NCBI GenBank assembly: GCA_017527945.1
Contig: JAFXPL010000136.1
Location: forward strand, 1-7,277
Reading direction: 5' to 3'
Length of the DNA stretch: 7,277 bases
From: Bacteroidales bacterium
GTDB taxonomy: Bacteria; Bacteroidota; Bacteroidia; Bacteroidales; WCHB1-69
Shown: one piece after another, positions 771 through 7,277 of the stretch
How positions within the stretch are numbered: position 1 is the first letter of the stretch
Layout: each line of letters opens with the position of its first letter
Translations under genes and position numbers: made by a program
The notes under the pieces: model-generated
Databases searched by the model: none
What the model was told of the DNA's origin: nothing
What the model saw: only the letters and a program-made list of their open reading frames with translations

Positions 771-796
771 TTGGAATCGCAAAAAATATATTTTTG
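771..796 (+). promoter_or_regulatory. Bacteroidota-type promoter for the M6/M16 peptidase unit
   Basis: TATTTTTG at 789-796 matches the Bacteroidota -7 consensus TAnnTTTG exactly. A TTG at 771-773 begins 18 bases earlier and could serve as the -33 element, a slightly short spacing. Transcription would begin near 803, leaving a leader of about 25 bases before the ATG at 829. The -7 box sits inside a near-perfect palindrome (779-797, GCAAAAA...TTTTTGC). No other match stands in the 15-base gap before the second gene, so this promoter probably drives both peptidases. Confidence 0.7.
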
Positions 797-828
797 CAAG
801 TTTAATTGTAAATCAACCTGACAAAGGT

Positions 829-2424: not shown

Positions 2425-5334
2425 ATGAAACGTAACGTTATCGCAAGCCTGCTGCTGACGGCCTTCTGTCTCCTGGCCTTCAGTTCATTCGCGCAGAATT
2501 ACCACAAGGAGACCTATCAGAACGACCCGATGAACGTCATCCACTACACGTTGGACAACGGCCTGCAGGTCTTCATGTCTGTAAACAAGGACGTGCCGCG
2601 CATCCAGACCTACATCGCGGTGCGCGTGGGCAGCAAGAACGACCCTGCCGAATCCACGGGCCTCTCCCACTACCTGGAGCACCTGATGTTCAAGGGCACC
2701 ACCCACTTCGGCACGCTCGACTGGCCGAAGGAGCAGGAGCAGCTCAAGAAGATCGAAGCCTTGTACGAGGTCTATAACCACACCACCGACCCCGCCAAGC
2801 GCAAGGCCATCTACCACGAGATCGACTCCGTCTCCTACGAGGCTTCCAAGTACGCCATCCCGAACGAATACGACAAGATGATGTCGATGATCGGCGCACA
2901 GGGCACCAACGCCTTCACCTCCACCGACATGACCGTCTATCAGGAGGACATCCCGAGCAACGAGCTCGAACGCTGGCTCAAGATCGAGGGCGAGCGCTTC
3001 GCAGACCCTGTCTTCCGCCTCTTCCACACCGAGTTGGAGGCCGTCTATGAGGAGAAGAACATGAACATGGCCAACGACAGCCGCACCGCCTACGAGAAGC
3101 TCAACGAGGCCCTCTTCCCGCACCACCCCTACGGCACGCAGACCACCATCGGCACCATCGAGCACCTGAAAAACCCGTCCCTGACGAACATCAACAAGCA
3201 CTTCTACACCTACTACGTGCCCAACAACTACTGCATCGCCATGTCGGGTGACTTCGACCCGGAACAAGCCATCAGACTGATTGACAAATATTTCGGAAAA
3301 ATCCAGCCGCGTTACATCCCCGACTTCACCTACGTGAAGGAGAAGCCCATCCGCGCGGTGAAGACCGTTGACGTTTATGGTTTGGAGGCCGAGAACGTGC
3401 AGATTGCCTTCCGCATCGATGCCGGCACTGGCTCCCGCGACGTGCTCCTCGCCGAGATGGTGGATGCCGTGCTGATGAACGGATCCTGCGGTATCATCGA
3501 CGAGAACATCAACCAGAAGCAGCTCGCCCAGTACGCCGCTTCCGGCGTGGGCGACATGAACGACTACGCCTATTTCCGCCTCATCGGTATGCCCAAACAG
3601 GGACAGACCCTCGAACAGCTCAAGGACCTCCTGCTGCAACAACTCGAAGTGCTGAAATCCGGCAACTGGGACGCCGACCTGCTCACCGCCGCCATCAACA
3701 ACCGCAAACTCAGCGACATGACCTCCTTGGAGAGCAACTCCAACCGTGCCATGAAGATGGCCATGGCCTACCTCGCCCACCAGAGCTGGCAGGATGTGGT
3801 CAACGAGACCGAAAACATGAGCTATGTGACCAAGGAGGATGTCATCGACTTCGCCAAGCGCATGTTCAAGAACAACAACTACGTGGTGGTCTATAAGCGC
3901 CAAGGCGAACAACGCAACGTGCAGAAGGTCGATAAGCCCGAAATCACCCCCGTGGTGATGAACCGCGACGTGGAAAGCAACTTCCTGAAGGAGGTCAAGA
4001 ACATGAAGGTGAACCCCATCGAGCCCGTCTTCATCGATTTCAGCAAGGACATGCAGAAGGGCAAGGCCAACGGCAACGAGATTCTTTACGTGAAGAACAC
4101 CGACAACGGCCGCTTCCAGCTGATCTACCGCTATAACTACGGCCGGTTCTATGACAAGAAGGCCGGTATCACCAACTCCTTCCTCGACCAGCTGGAGAGC
4201 GACAACCGTACCCTCAGCCAGATCAACCGCGAAATGTACGACCTTGCCTGCGACTACAGCATCGGCTTCGGCGACAAATACGCCACCGTCCGCATCTCCG
4301 GCCTGAGCGAGAACATGGAGAAGGCCATGGCCATCGTGGAGGACATCCTCAACAATCCGAAAATCTCCGAAGCGTCCGTCACGAACTCCATCAGCGACGT
4401 GCTGAAATCACGCAACGACGCAAAATCACGCCAGCAGACCATCTTCCAAAACATGCTCCGCTACGTCTCCTACGGCAAAGACAACACCCGCAAGTATTTC
4501 GTGAGCAACGAAGAGGTGCAGAACATCAAGGCTCAGGATGTCGTCAACCAAATCAAGACGATGACCTCCCAGCCGCAGCGCATCCTCTACTACGGCGACC
4601 TCAGCCTCAACGACTTGCAAAAGGTCGTCACGGAGAAGCACAGCGTGCACCCGGCCAAGAAACCCGCGAAGATGGGTTCTGACTACGACCGTTTGGCCAC
4701 GAAGGAGAACAAGGTCTATTTCGCGCACTACGATGCCAAGCAGTCGCTGTGCCGCCAGCTCACCACCTCCGTGCCCGCCAACTGGGCCATGAGCCCGCAA
4801 ATCGAGATGTACAACGAGTACTTCGGCGGCAGCATGAACTCCATCGTCTTCCAGGAAATCCGCGAAAAACGCTCCTTAGCCTACTCCGCCGCCGCCTACT
4901 TCGTAGAACCGAACGAAAAAGGCAAGCTCGACTACAACATGACCCACATCGGCACGCAGAACGACAAGCTGATCGACGCCATGGAGGCCTTCAACGACCT
5001 GTTGGACAACATGCCGGTCTCCGAACTGAACTTCGACCTCGCCAAGACCTCCCTCATCTCGCAGTACCGCACCGACCGCACCCGCAAGATGAGCATCATC
5101 AACTACTACCTCACCTGCGAGGAGATGGGACTGAAGACCCCGCTCGACCGCACCAATTTCAACGCCATCCAGAAAATGACCCTGAACGACGTGGTGAACT
5201 TCAACAAGAACTACATCAAGGGCCAGAAGCGCGTGGTGGTCGTCCTCGGCAACAAGGATGAAGTCAACCTGAAGGGCCTCGAAAAATACGGCAAGGTGAC
5301 GACCCTGTCGTTGGAGGAAATCTTCGGATACTAA
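2425..5334 (+). CDS. Periplasmic M16-family zinc peptidase, fused two-half (pitrilysin/PqqL-like) type
   Basis: This 969-aa protein has the length and double architecture of pitrilysin/PqqL-type M16 peptidases, which digest peptides inside a closed clamshell chamber. A signal peptide covers residues 1-23 (cleavage probably in 'SSFA|Q'), with no lipobox, so a periplasmic location is expected. The N-terminal half (about 36-250) carries the inverted zinc motif HxxEH as 'HYLEHLMFKGT' (H82, E85, H86). The third zinc ligand is probably E203 in 'ELEAVYEE', by alignment with the family E-x6-E pattern. 'TNAFTSTDMTVY' (161-172) is another family block. An M16_C-like domain begins near 250 ('YTYYVPNNYCIAMSGDFDPE', 261-280). 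The C-terminal half (about 545-969) lacks a zinc motif, as expected for the inactive half, but has the conserved 'FQEIREKRSLAYS' (809-821). Between HxxEH and NAFTS there are about 45 more residues than in compact members, charged and helical-looking (about 98-150). The gene starts 15 bases after the M6 gene with no promoter between them, so co-transcription is likely. Confidence 0.93.
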   Translation: MKRNVIASLLLTAFCLLAFSSFAQNYHKETYQNDPMNVIHYTLDNGLQVFMSVNKDVPRIQTYIAVRVGSKNDPAESTGLSHYLEHLMFKGTTHFGTLDWPKEQEQLKKIEALYEVYNHTTDPAKRKAIYHEIDSVSYEASKYAIPNEYDKMMSMIGAQGTNAFTSTDMTVYQEDIPSNELERWLKIEGERFADPVFRLFHTELEAVYEEKNMNMANDSRTAYEKLNEALFPHHPYGTQTTIGTIEHLKNPSLTNINKHFYTYYVPNNYCIAMSGDFDPEQAIRLIDKYFGKIQPRYIPDFTYVKEKPIRAVKTVDVYGLEAENVQIAFRIDAGTGSRDVLLAEMVDAVLMNGSCGIIDENINQKQLAQYAASGVGDMNDYAYFRLIGMPKQGQTLEQLKDLLLQQLEVLKSGNWDADLLTAAINNRKLSDMTSLESNSNRAMKMAMAYLAHQSWQDVVNETENMSYVTKEDVIDFAKRMFKNNNYVVVYKRQGEQRNVQKVDKPEITPVVMNRDVESNFLKEVKNMKVNPIEPVFIDFSKDMQKGKANGNEILYVKNTDNGRFQLIYRYNYGRFYDKKAGITNSFLDQLESDNRTLSQINREMYDLACDYSIGFGDKYATVRISGLSENMEKAMAIVEDILNNPKISEASVTNSISDVLKSRNDAKSRQQTIFQNMLRYVSYGKDNTRKYFVSNEEVQNIKAQDVVNQIKTMTSQPQRILYYGDLSLNDLQKVVTEKHSVHPAKKPAKMGSDYDRLATKENKVYFAHYDAKQSLCRQLTTSVPANWAMSPQIEMYNEYFGGSMNSIVFQEIREKRSLAYSAAAYFVEPNEKGKLDYNMTHIGTQNDKLIDAMEAFNDLLDNMPVSELNFDLAKTSLISQYRTDRTRKMSIINYYLTCEEMGLKTPLDRTNFNAIQKMTLNDVVNFNKNYIKGQKRVVVVLGNKDEVNLKGLEKYGKVTTLSLEEIFGY

Positions 5335-5496: not shown

Positions 5497-5504
5497 TATT
5501 TTTG
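5497..5504 (+). promoter_or_regulatory. Bacteroidota-type -7 box for the lipoprotein gene
   Basis: TATTTTTG matches TAnnTTTG exactly and sits in the frequent Bacteroidota context TGTATTTTTGC. I see no clear TTG -33 element at the expected distance. Predicted transcription start is near 5511, giving a leader of about 57 bases before ATG 5568. The box lies 43 bases past the preceding terminator T-run, so the lipoprotein is a separate transcription unit. Confidence 0.7.
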
Positions 5505-5567
5505 CAGCCTCAAACAATAAACCGGTCCCGAGCTGCGTTATCAGCCGGAACATCAAATCGCATCATT

Positions 5568-6707
5568 ATGGCAAAGAGAATCGTATTATCCATTTGTGCA
5601 GCAGTAGTGTTGGCCCTGTTTGGCAACGCCTGCCACCGCACTCCCGTCGAACCGACGCCGTCACCCGAAAACCCGGCCAACACAGAAGGCATGTACCTTG
5701 GCATAATAGGTTTCAACGACCAGCTGTACATCAAGGATATCAGCCTTTTGAACAGTTCGACATACCCGAATTTCACGAAATTCATCGACGCCCTCGTCCC
5801 CGGCAACGGCACGGCACTGTATTATGCCGACTACACGGCCCTGAAGAAAATGAGGGCCTATTCCCGGCCCAAAAAGCTGAAAAACGTGGCGTTAGTGACG
5901 TTTACGGACGGTCTTGACAACATCTCGACCGCCAACAACCAATACGACCCGGAAGCCTACGGCAGCACCACCGCCTACCGCGATGCCCTGCACAACAAGA
6001 TCATGAACGAGCCGATACACGGCGTTCGCGTCTCGGCCTACTCCATCGGCCTGAAGGGCAGCGACGTCACCGACGAGGCGCAGTTCATGGAGACGCTCCG
6101 CAAGCTGGCCAGCAGCAACAGCAACGTGTTCCAAGTGGCGAACATGGACGAAGCCATGGCCCGGTTCTCGGACATCGCCTCCAGCCTCTACTCCATCTCC
6201 ACGTCCGTGAACTTGGGCGTGAACGTTCCCGGCGGCTACGACGAGGGACAGATCCTCCGCTTCACCTTCGACAACGTGAATTCGGCGGCCCAGTCAACCC
6301 GCTTCGTCGAGGCCACCTACCGCCGCACCTCTTCCGGCACCAGAACGCTGGACAACATCATCTATTACGGAATCGCCCAAGGCCCGGTCACAATCGCTTC
6401 CTCTTCCCTGCAGGGCGCCTACTACAAGTTCCTGCTCGAAGGGCTCGCCTACCTCGACGGCACCCCGATCTCCCAGACGGACTTGAACAACATCAAGCTC
6501 TGGAAACGGACCAGCACGGGCGCGTGGGACAAAGAGACGGAGTTCAACCCGGCAAGCTCGACCACGGTTACGGAGGACAAGAACAGCGCCCTGGTCATCC
6601 TGGTGTTGGACTGCACGACCTCGTTGGGCAGCGATTTCGCCAACATGCAAAACAGCGCCAAACAGTTCACCCGGACACTCGCCAACGCCGAGGACAAACG
6701 GCGGTAA
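5568..6707 (+). CDS. Predicted lipoprotein with a vWA-like domain, apparently circularly permuted
   Basis: The product is 379 aa. Residues 1-21 are a hydrophobic signal sequence ending 'LALFGNAC', with C22 as probable lipid-attached cysteine; the lipobox is loose because -3 is Gly rather than Leu. A Pro-rich linker (about 23-38) follows. Residues 42-210 carry vWA hallmarks: 'YLGIIGFND' (beta strand), 'GNGTALYYADYTAL' with the likely MIDAS threonine T82, 'NVALVTFTDGLDN' with D114, 'VRVSAYSIGLKG', and a final 'FQVANMDEAMARF'. The usual first strand and DxSxS motif are absent from the N-terminus. Residues 214-338 look beta-rich ('VPGGYDEGQILRFTFDN' and on). At 340-371 comes 'SALVILVLDCTTSLGSDF' and a helix, which looks like the missing strand 1/helix 1 with D348-x-T350-x-S352. 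ATG 5568 is preferred because it starts the signal peptide; the longer frame would begin at a TTG overlapping the promoter. A metal-dependent binding role at the envelope is inference. The ligand is unknown. Confidence 0.82.
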   Translation: MAKRIVLSICAAVVLALFGNACHRTPVEPTPSPENPANTEGMYLGIIGFNDQLYIKDISLLNSSTYPNFTKFIDALVPGNGTALYYADYTALKKMRAYSRPKKLKNVALVTFTDGLDNISTANNQYDPEAYGSTTAYRDALHNKIMNEPIHGVRVSAYSIGLKGSDVTDEAQFMETLRKLASSNSNVFQVANMDEAMARFSDIASSLYSISTSVNLGVNVPGGYDEGQILRFTFDNVNSAAQSTRFVEATYRRTSSGTRTLDNIIYYGIAQGPVTIASSSLQGAYYKFLLEGLAYLDGTPISQTDLNNIKLWKRTSTGAWDKETEFNPASSTTVTEDKNSALVILVLDCTTSLGSDFANMQNSAKQFTRTLANAEDKRR

Positions 6708-6738
6708 TCCTAACGGTGCCTTTTTGACAACGACCAAG

Positions 6739-6769
6739 CTCTCTTCCTTTTGCGAAGAGAGTTTTTTTT
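6739..6769 (+). terminator. Rho-independent terminator after the lipoprotein gene
   Basis: A perfect 8-bp stem pairs 6739-6746 (CTCTCTTC) with 6754-6761 (GAAGAGAG) around a 7-base loop. A run of eight T follows (6762-6769). Bases AAG before the stem can pair with the first T residues, extending it by up to three pairs. It ends the single-gene unit 32 bases after the stop codon. Confidence 0.9.
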
Positions 6770-6874: not shown

Positions 6875-6882
6875 TACTTTTG
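6875..6882 (+). promoter_or_regulatory. Bacteroidota-type -7 box for the right-edge gene
   Basis: TACTTTTG matches TAnnTTTG exactly, in the common context TTGTACTTTTGC. No clear -33 TTG is visible at the expected spacing. Transcription should start near 6889, leaving only about 14 bases before ATG 6903. This supports that ATG over alternatives. Confidence 0.65.
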
Positions 6883-6902: not shown

Positions 6903-7277
6903 ATGTCCCCGAACGAACCCGATATTCTGCAACTCCGCCAAATGGTGGAGGAATCCGTCTCAAGGAAGATGAAGACCCCGGCCGACTTCCAGTTCCTCAC
7001 CGGCATCATCCAAGAGCGCTGCAAGGAGACCCTCGGCGTGACCACCCTCAAGCGCATCTGGGGCTATGTGGAGGGTTACGACACCACCCGCTACTCCACC
7101 CTCTCGGTCCTCGCCCGTTGCGTGGGTTTTCACGACTGGGACGATTTCCTGGCCAACCACGACCGCGCGGGCGAATCCTCGAACCCGGTGTTGGGCCGCG
7201 TCCTGCATCCCGACGAGATCCCGCAGGAGGGTTTTGTGCGCATCGCCTGGTCGCCCGACCGCCGTGTGCTGCTGCGC
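6903..7277 (+). CDS. Probable Bacteroidota DNA-binding/regulatory protein, N-terminal 125 codons, cut by the window edge
   Basis: The frame is open from ATG 6903 to the right edge. Residues 1-90 are helical and resemble the N-terminal region of a Bacteroidota protein group I remember only by motif: a leading helix, 'TPADFQFLTGIIQE' (25-38), 'TLKRIWGYVEGY' (48-59), and 'STLSVLARCVGFHDWDDF' (65-82). The 'TLKRxWGY...TLxxLAxxxGxxxWxxF' pattern looks like a helix-turn-helix-type fold, so DNA binding is plausible but not shown. From about 95 a second region starts. 'EGFVRIAWSPDRRVLLR' (109-125) looks like the opening of a small beta domain found in the same proteins. The gene has its own promoter, and a terminator separates it from the lipoprotein gene. 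The C-terminus is missing from the window. The target is unknown, and it may or may not act on its neighbours. Confidence 0.75.
   Translation, partial: MSPNEPDILQLRQMVEESVSRKMKTPADFQFLTGIIQERCKETLGVTTLKRIWGYVEGYDTTRYSTLSVLARCVGFHDWDDFLANHDRAGESSNPVLGRVLHPDEIPQEGFVRIAWSPDRRVLLR

Follow-up and report, generated by a model that had tools for sequence, protein, structure and literature searches.

A Bacteroidales lipoprotein family that is very probably a circular permutant of a vWA-in-beta-domain unit

The window analysed here (the whole stretch of 7,277 nucleotides of Bacteroidales DNA) carries, at 5568..6707 on the forward strand, the gene for P0001, a 379-aa lipoprotein which, from our reading of the sequence and its homologs, very probably contains a circularly permuted vWA domain. 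The open reading frame runs from an ATG at 5568 to a stop codon ending at 6707, and the coordinates and residue numbers of an earlier sequence-only reading were all correct when we rechecked them. Upstream lies TATTTTTGCA (5497..5506, +), which is similar to the -7 box of Bacteroidota, TAnnTTTG (5 matches against 2.1 expected), and a terminator-like hairpin with a T run follows directly 3′ of the gene (6736..6764, +; 3 such sites against 2.5 expected from shuffles).

On the same strand, gene 829-2409 codes for a metallopeptidase of M6-like (immune inhibitor A) type that has an HEMGH motif and a T9SS sorting domain at its C-terminus (Pfam Por_Secre_tail, E 1.2e-14; Peptidase_M6, E 7e-4, under the cut-off), and 15 bp past it begins the gene for a 969-aa M16 (insulinase/pitrilysin-type) peptidase (2425-5334, +), in which M16_C was matched in two stretches (E 1.7e-28). 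Downstream, the start of an open reading frame (6903-7277, +) is regulator-like by reading, has no Pfam match and is preceded at 6875 by TACTTTTG, likewise -7-like. TATTTTTGCA recurs at 789-798 (+), 5′ of the M6-like peptidase gene (2 matches against 0.14 expected); because the same box lies upstream of each, the M6-like peptidase gene and the P0001 gene would seem to be separate transcription units. When open reading frames of at least 100 aa were clustered by BLAST, neither peptidase gene nor the downstream frame had a counterpart in 79 loci with related genes, leaving an operon of the vWA gene with these neighbours unsupported. The family has no neighbourhood in common: of the gene clusters outside it, the biggest occurred in 8 of 80 stretches, and gene-order sharing near family genes was synteny between near relatives only, plus a downstream lipoprotein gene in six loci.

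P0001 opens with the signal peptide and lipobox (GNAC) that qualify it as a lipoprotein (5568..5633, +), the lipid-bearing C22 being encoded at 5631-5633. A linker of residues 23-41 (5634..5690, +) leads into the N-terminal vWA part, from strand 2 to the last helix (residues 42-211; 5691..6200, +), with the motifs IGFN (47-50), the MIDAS threonine T82 (5811..5813, +), TFTDGLDN (111-118) with the MIDAS aspartate D114 (5907..5909, +), and YSIGL (158-162). There follow two parts of a beta domain, residues 212-236 (6201..6275, +) and 246-338 (6303..6581, +), which meet in a joint at about residues 237-245 (6276..6302, +). Only then comes what we read as vWA strand 1 (340-348; 6585..6611, +), the DCTTS that would be the MIDAS DxTxS (D348, T350 and S352; 6609..6623, +) and helix 1 (356-371; 6633..6680, +), where the domain ends.

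The AlphaFold model of P0001 (pLDDT 85.6, pTM 0.71) agrees with this layout. Residues 1-35 have pLDDT below 50; strands lie at 42-49, 53-61, 104-113 and 155-162, and a helix at 193-211, such that the vWA alpha/beta fold is present in the model for the beta2-alpha6 part; residues 212-338 are beta-rich, and the chain closes with a strand at 340-348 and a helix at 356-371, with a mean pLDDT of 93-97 over 341-370. The sequence-only reading had placed the start of the mature protein at a strand-2-like block, and strand 1 and helix 1 at the C-terminus; the model has no strand before residue 42, and its last strand and helix fall where they had been proposed. On this prediction the fold of P0001 is probably that of a vWA domain.

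The same order of motifs runs through the family. A database search returned 980 proteins related to P0001 at E<=1e-3, of which 120 listed matches were used. Order was scored in 242 sequences: the proteins of at least 330 aa listed by this search and by the un-permuted-profile search described below (five shorter ones having been excluded beforehand), the window protein and 79 loci, taken from the best 80 of 120 confirmed stretches among 149 candidates. The permuted pattern, TDG with D.[ST].S following 195-270 residues on, was present in 234 of the 242 (window included; among the matches listed). These sequences depart from the canonical order modelled in PF00092, beta1-alpha1-beta2...alpha6, the DxS/TxS coming after TDG. 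Four of the eight sequences without the pattern are loci cut by contig ends (L036, L041, L056 and L057), P0168 and P0082 have an altered C-terminus, P0146 was missed owing to a TFSDG although its DCTTS is in place, and P0145 is the remaining one.

The five MIDAS positions (D, T/S, S, T, D) are occupied in 234/234 permuted sequences and in 96/96 of the canonical-order sister proteins described below, in a rotated joint alignment that left out 3 of 99 canonical sequences, each of 280 aa or less after cropping; these 100% counts say less at D114, D348 and S352, because the motif crop partly selected those residues in the permuted set. D114 was also present in 76/76 sequences under the same crop. 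T82, which no filter chose, is Thr in 76/76 (the window and 75 of the 79 loci) as well as in both larger sets. The co-conservation that the sequence-only reading had proposed to examine was found, and loss of DxTxS among homologs was looked for and not seen.

P0001 itself matches no Pfam family in native order even at E<=10, and there was still no Pfam vWA match when its C-terminal segment was moved to the front; NCBIfam gave a weak VWA match alone (residues 78-202, E 0.018). Since P0001 has no Pfam match in either order, its statistical tie to vWA domains runs via its relatives. Seventeen members were un-permuted by setting the C-terminal segment before the beta2-alpha6 part. With the resulting profile, 24 PDB sequences were matched at E<=0.01, and every one is a vWA protein; they include mussel PTMP1, complement factor B and C2, CLCA, Mfa5 and collagen VI, whereas the same pieces in native order gave two PDB matches, with the best stretch on the beta1-alpha1 segment. 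Against Pfam, PF00092 was matched by 13/17 and VWA_2 by 11/17 un-permuted members (best E 6.5e-14), compared with 11/17 and 4/17 in native order (best E 2.7e-10). Four members, the window protein among them, were also taken singly. Of the other three, L079 is matched in one stretch, 2-172, when un-permuted and in two in native order, the best on profile positions 40-172; L063 improves from E 6.5e-8 to 2e-11; and L055, with no native vWA match, reaches E 3.7e-10.

Other native-order searches set the background for this comparison. A narrow native alignment (A1) gave nothing in PDB at E<=1, and a full-length one (A3) matched 13 sequences at E<=0.1, of which 12 also passed E<=0.01; every one was complement factor B, matched locally at what is taken as the DxSxS segment, so the native profile is not blind. 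In L060, positions 2-44 of PF00092 fall on residues 260-307, the site of its DxSxS, in line with the assignment of the C-terminal strand 1. At E<=0.01, PF00092 was matched in native order by 7/56 members of the near alignment and 37/56 of the wider full-length members. The un-permuted profile gave 246 matches; among those recognised or read in the 120 listed, none was of canonical order.

A natural relative, P0137, is a 240-aa protein without the beta part, so that alpha6 runs straight on into beta1 through a connection of a few residues, and its AlphaFold model has a pTM of 0.84, with pLDDT of 87 for residues 201-210 and 96-97 for 211-240; against Pfam it has no match. Whole-model Foldseek searches (the window protein and a second model) found nothing in PDB at E<=0.001, and the structure aligners left the permuted strand unplaced: most rows from VIA-align, which re-aligns Foldseek candidates only, end at the last helix. 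At L043:11152-11874 a permuted vWA gene of 240 aa that has no beta part lies 11 bp after a full-length member of the family, of which it is apparently a tandem paralog.

It could be argued from the lack of a Pfam match in the window protein, and from its poor Foldseek list, that the pieces are separate: a vWA-like fragment without strand 1 and, at the C-terminus, a strand and helix of no relation to it, whose DxTxS is there by chance. We find this hardly credible, as the un-permuted profiles match vWA proteins, the P0137 model joins the pieces, D348 and S352 are conserved together with T82, and in the sister proteins beta1-alpha1 directly precedes beta2 and is recovered as a separate BLAST piece in the rotated position. 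A chance motif or a truncated vWA is ruled out by the un-permuted profiles, P0137 and the rotated BLASTP pieces.

These sister proteins came from a search of whole genomes in the bacterial family to which the genome of L003, a close relative, belongs, where 48 of 104 genomes had matches: 29 with the canonical form and 21 with a collinear permuted-form match, two having both. In 20 genomes there was a two-piece match within one open frame, and in 20/20 the piece comprising the beta domain and beta1-alpha1 came before beta2-alpha6; nine further genomes, each with one partial match, had canonical order on reading (one being cut at a contig start). The complete canonical proteins read are of 501-603 aa, except L140 at 498. 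They begin with a signal peptide, beta part 2 (YYIEG...WQRDSEV), strand 1 (MVVMLVLDCSTS) and helix 1, and continue with the remaining vWA, beta part 1 (CYVPS..GKVRWTLG) and a tail that, from its sequence, looks like an outer-membrane barrel; Pfam named no barrel in it. These Bacteroidales proteins, annotated 'VWA domain-containing protein' (L111-L122; P0169-P0255), have the same beta domain, vWA and MIDAS residues as the permuted family. They differ in their canonical order, with the vWA between the beta parts, in a lipobox pattern found in 8/87, and in the barrel-like tail.

Pairwise alignments place the two forms in rotated register. By BLASTP, P0157 residues 14-223 match L116 158-367 (E 1.2e-23) and P0157 219-350 match L116 21-154 (E 8.7e-14), while P0001 41-297 match L117 163-438 (E 7.8e-20) and 309-374 match L117 91-158 (E 3.9e-8). 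Of the 84 pairs compared, some had just one piece under E 0.01. With both alignments in native order, hhalign gave E 1.2e-36 for a region that takes in beta2-alpha6 and the strands after it. After rotation the whole unit of P0157 and L116 could be aligned with 104 of 318 positions identical (33% in this one pair), and two collinear alignments in rotated order span the unit, as would be looked for in a permuted homolog of the canonical sisters. Beta part 1 of P0001 is homologous to the post-vWA strands of the sisters and part 2 to their pre-vWA strands, and the joint between them is the alignment breakpoint, corresponding to both ends of the unit in the sisters. Because the vWA of the sisters is likewise housed in this beta domain, it is the whole vWA-plus-beta unit that appears permuted, and its ends now fall between alpha1 and beta2. 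Here the sequence-only reading stood in part: the beta-rich stretch does lie between the permuted vWA pieces, but it is no random insert, the vWA of the sisters sitting inside that same domain.

Thus our comparison of un-permuted with native profiles, the P0137 model and the canonical-order sisters all bear out the circular permutation first proposed from one sequence, and we consider it very probable that the P0001 family is a circular permutant of a vWA-in-beta-domain unit. We propose that the starting form was a MIDAS vWA inserted in a small beta domain as one two-domain unit. The order in the canonical sisters is [beta part 2]-[beta1-alpha1-beta2...alpha6]-[beta part 1]-barrel-like tail, and in the permuted family [beta2...alpha6]-[beta part 1+2]-[beta1-alpha1]; on this view the old termini were fused inside the beta domain, and the alpha1-beta2 loop was opened to give new ones. 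The folded chain would then be an ordinary vWA, its C-terminal DxTxS closing the metal site with T82 and D114 if strand 1 packs as we infer.

Bacteroidales type V pili are assembled via strand exchange, and a segment at the chain end, as beta1-alpha1 is, could in principle complete the vWA of a neighbouring molecule by domain swapping or strand donation, so that oligomers or filaments would form and the permutation would not be intramolecular; our AlphaFold models are of monomers only. We regard such donation as quite improbable, given that alpha6 and beta1 of P0137 are joined by few residues in a confident monomer model, that many members have extra domains past alpha1, and that the same pieces are covalently adjacent in the canonical sisters. 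There is likewise a slim chance that beta1-alpha1 is exchanged between molecules to close metal sites in trans, with the lipoproteins forming adhesive oligomers; if so, the permutation would be an assembly device and not a neutral rearrangement.

The circular permutant is found in rumen and gut Bacteroidales, in 'UBP6' and other bacterial metagenome-assembled genomes (MAGs), and in Treponema/Spirochaetaceae MAGs, which we take as termite-gut. Elsewhere it is rare: at E<=1e-20 the permuted form occurred in 1 of 395 sampled genomes of the phylum of L003 (its own), in 5/296 of the spirochaete phylum (query genome counted) and in 11/28 of the phylum of the UBP6 genome. A canonical profile at E<=1e-12 recovered the same 1, 5 and 11 genomes, its two-piece matches being in permuted order in one gene of the spirochaete phylum and nine of the UBP6 phylum. 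In the order of L003 the canonical profile matched 11/198 genomes, among them G723, G892 and G993, where the match was canonical and full-length. Among the samples searched, then, the permuted form is in three groups, and canonical sisters are confined to the order to which L003's genome belongs.

In a tree of rotated sequences without outgroup (41 permuted and 18 canonical rows, thinned), one branch splits the two forms with SH-aLRT 100. In a tree of 63 rows with the small canonical-order lipoproteins L137 and L138 as its outgroup, the canonical barrel sequences form a clade (95/100) and the base is not resolved; the permuted sequences as a single clade were not rejected (p-AU 0.546) and appeared in 54% of 200 bootstrap trees. 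On these sequences the canonical barrel-type sisters may have arisen within the permuted group. From the usual order of vWA domains, we infer that the canonical order is ancestral.

As to function, 201 of the 231 permuted sequences that start with Met have a lipobox-like pattern, and Pfam names C-terminal partner domains of kinds other than vWA among 56 relatives: Lcl_C in 11, fn3 in 5, Fib_succ_major and Laminin_G_3 in 4 each, Flg_new_2 in 3 and FGE-sulfatase in 2. In six loci (L020, L023, L025, L051, L054 and L059) the permuted vWA gene is followed at 18-29 bp by the start of a lipoprotein-like gene, and those scanned encode fn3 domains in 5/5 and CUB or InlB-type repeats in 4/5. The vWA gene and the downstream fn3 lipoprotein gene could possibly form a two-gene surface system. 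Our proposed arrangement would have the lipid tether on the strand-2 side, with the further domains of many relatives lying beyond helix 1. Lipobox, partner domains and downstream genes, as read from sequence, fit the display of a metal-dependent binding head, and P0001 is likely to be an adhesin or a ligand-binding module that is anchored to the cell and depends on a divalent metal. That it is specifically a metal-dependent surface adhesin, which would take metal binding, exposure and adhesion together, we put at somewhat better than an even chance.

The permuted vWA might instead be a periplasmic scaffold, a chaperone or an envelope component, a proposal about function that is compatible with the permutation and weighed apart from it. 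P0001 lacks an obvious surface-export signal: one study describes that of Bacteroidota lipoproteins as C-X-K-(D/E)2 or an acidic stretch (PMC5080379), and the residues after C22, HRTPVE, are unlike it. In the family, 104 of the 201 lipobox-bearing permuted sequences have at least two acidic residues among the six past the Cys. Certain vWA proteins serve as chaperones, the domain being termed a peptide-binding chaperone in PMC9503650. Set against the lipobox frequency, the fusions to Lcl_C, fn3, laminin-G and InlB-repeat domains, and the downstream lipoprotein-like genes, this non-adhesive role seems to us a sizeable though lesser possibility.

We know of no vWA or I domain that has been described as circularly permuted. 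None was found in the open PMC papers searched for permuted vWA, MIDAS or I domains; the permutation wording in passages of PMC2430557, PMC7824862, PMC9503650 and PMC3650047 concerns unrelated matters. In comparison with the vWA/integrin I domain (PF00092, PF13519), beta1-alpha1 of this family is at the C-terminus, and the native-order PF00092 matches of its members, in the single cases examined, cover part of the profile or break up into several stretches. The permuted order explains why annotation overlooks such proteins or catches them incompletely (P0001 and P0137 without a Pfam match, PF00092 in the 7/56 and 37/56 members given above).

The nearest described system in architecture is Bdellovibrio MIDAS adhesin Bd0875, which combines a lipobox with a MIDAS fold set into a small beta-rich domain that its N- and C-terminal parts build together (PMC11003981). 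Bd0875 is likened here by architecture alone; it shares the connectivity of the canonical sisters, canonical vWA order is implied, and the passages on it (PMC11003981) speak of no permutation. Structural matches to our models included the integrin beta headpiece (hybrid-betaI), SpaC, RrgA, GBS104 and Mfa5, all of canonical order. In the integrin beta headpiece and in these pilus adhesins, the vWA has beta domains on both flanks.

Few adhesion folds are as widespread as vWA/I domains, and the present family indicates that their alpha1-beta2 loop tolerates new termini, which would shift the membrane tether and fused domains to other places on the MIDAS domain. Because sister proteins have the same pieces in ordinary order, the rotation can be read from sequences, and with permuted and canonical forms in one bacterial family sharing a partner domain, breakpoints, tether and metal-site closure become directly comparable. 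Two further proteins from the order of L003 (L137:501-1523 and L138:727-1755) are 340-aa lipoproteins with beta strands either side of a vWA (PF00092, E 2e-13 and 8.2e-12); they differ in being of canonical order without the barrel-like tail, and were used as outgroup only. Both also show a weak match, under the cut-off, to the integrin-beta-like SIBA-E vWA (E 5e-4 and 3e-4).
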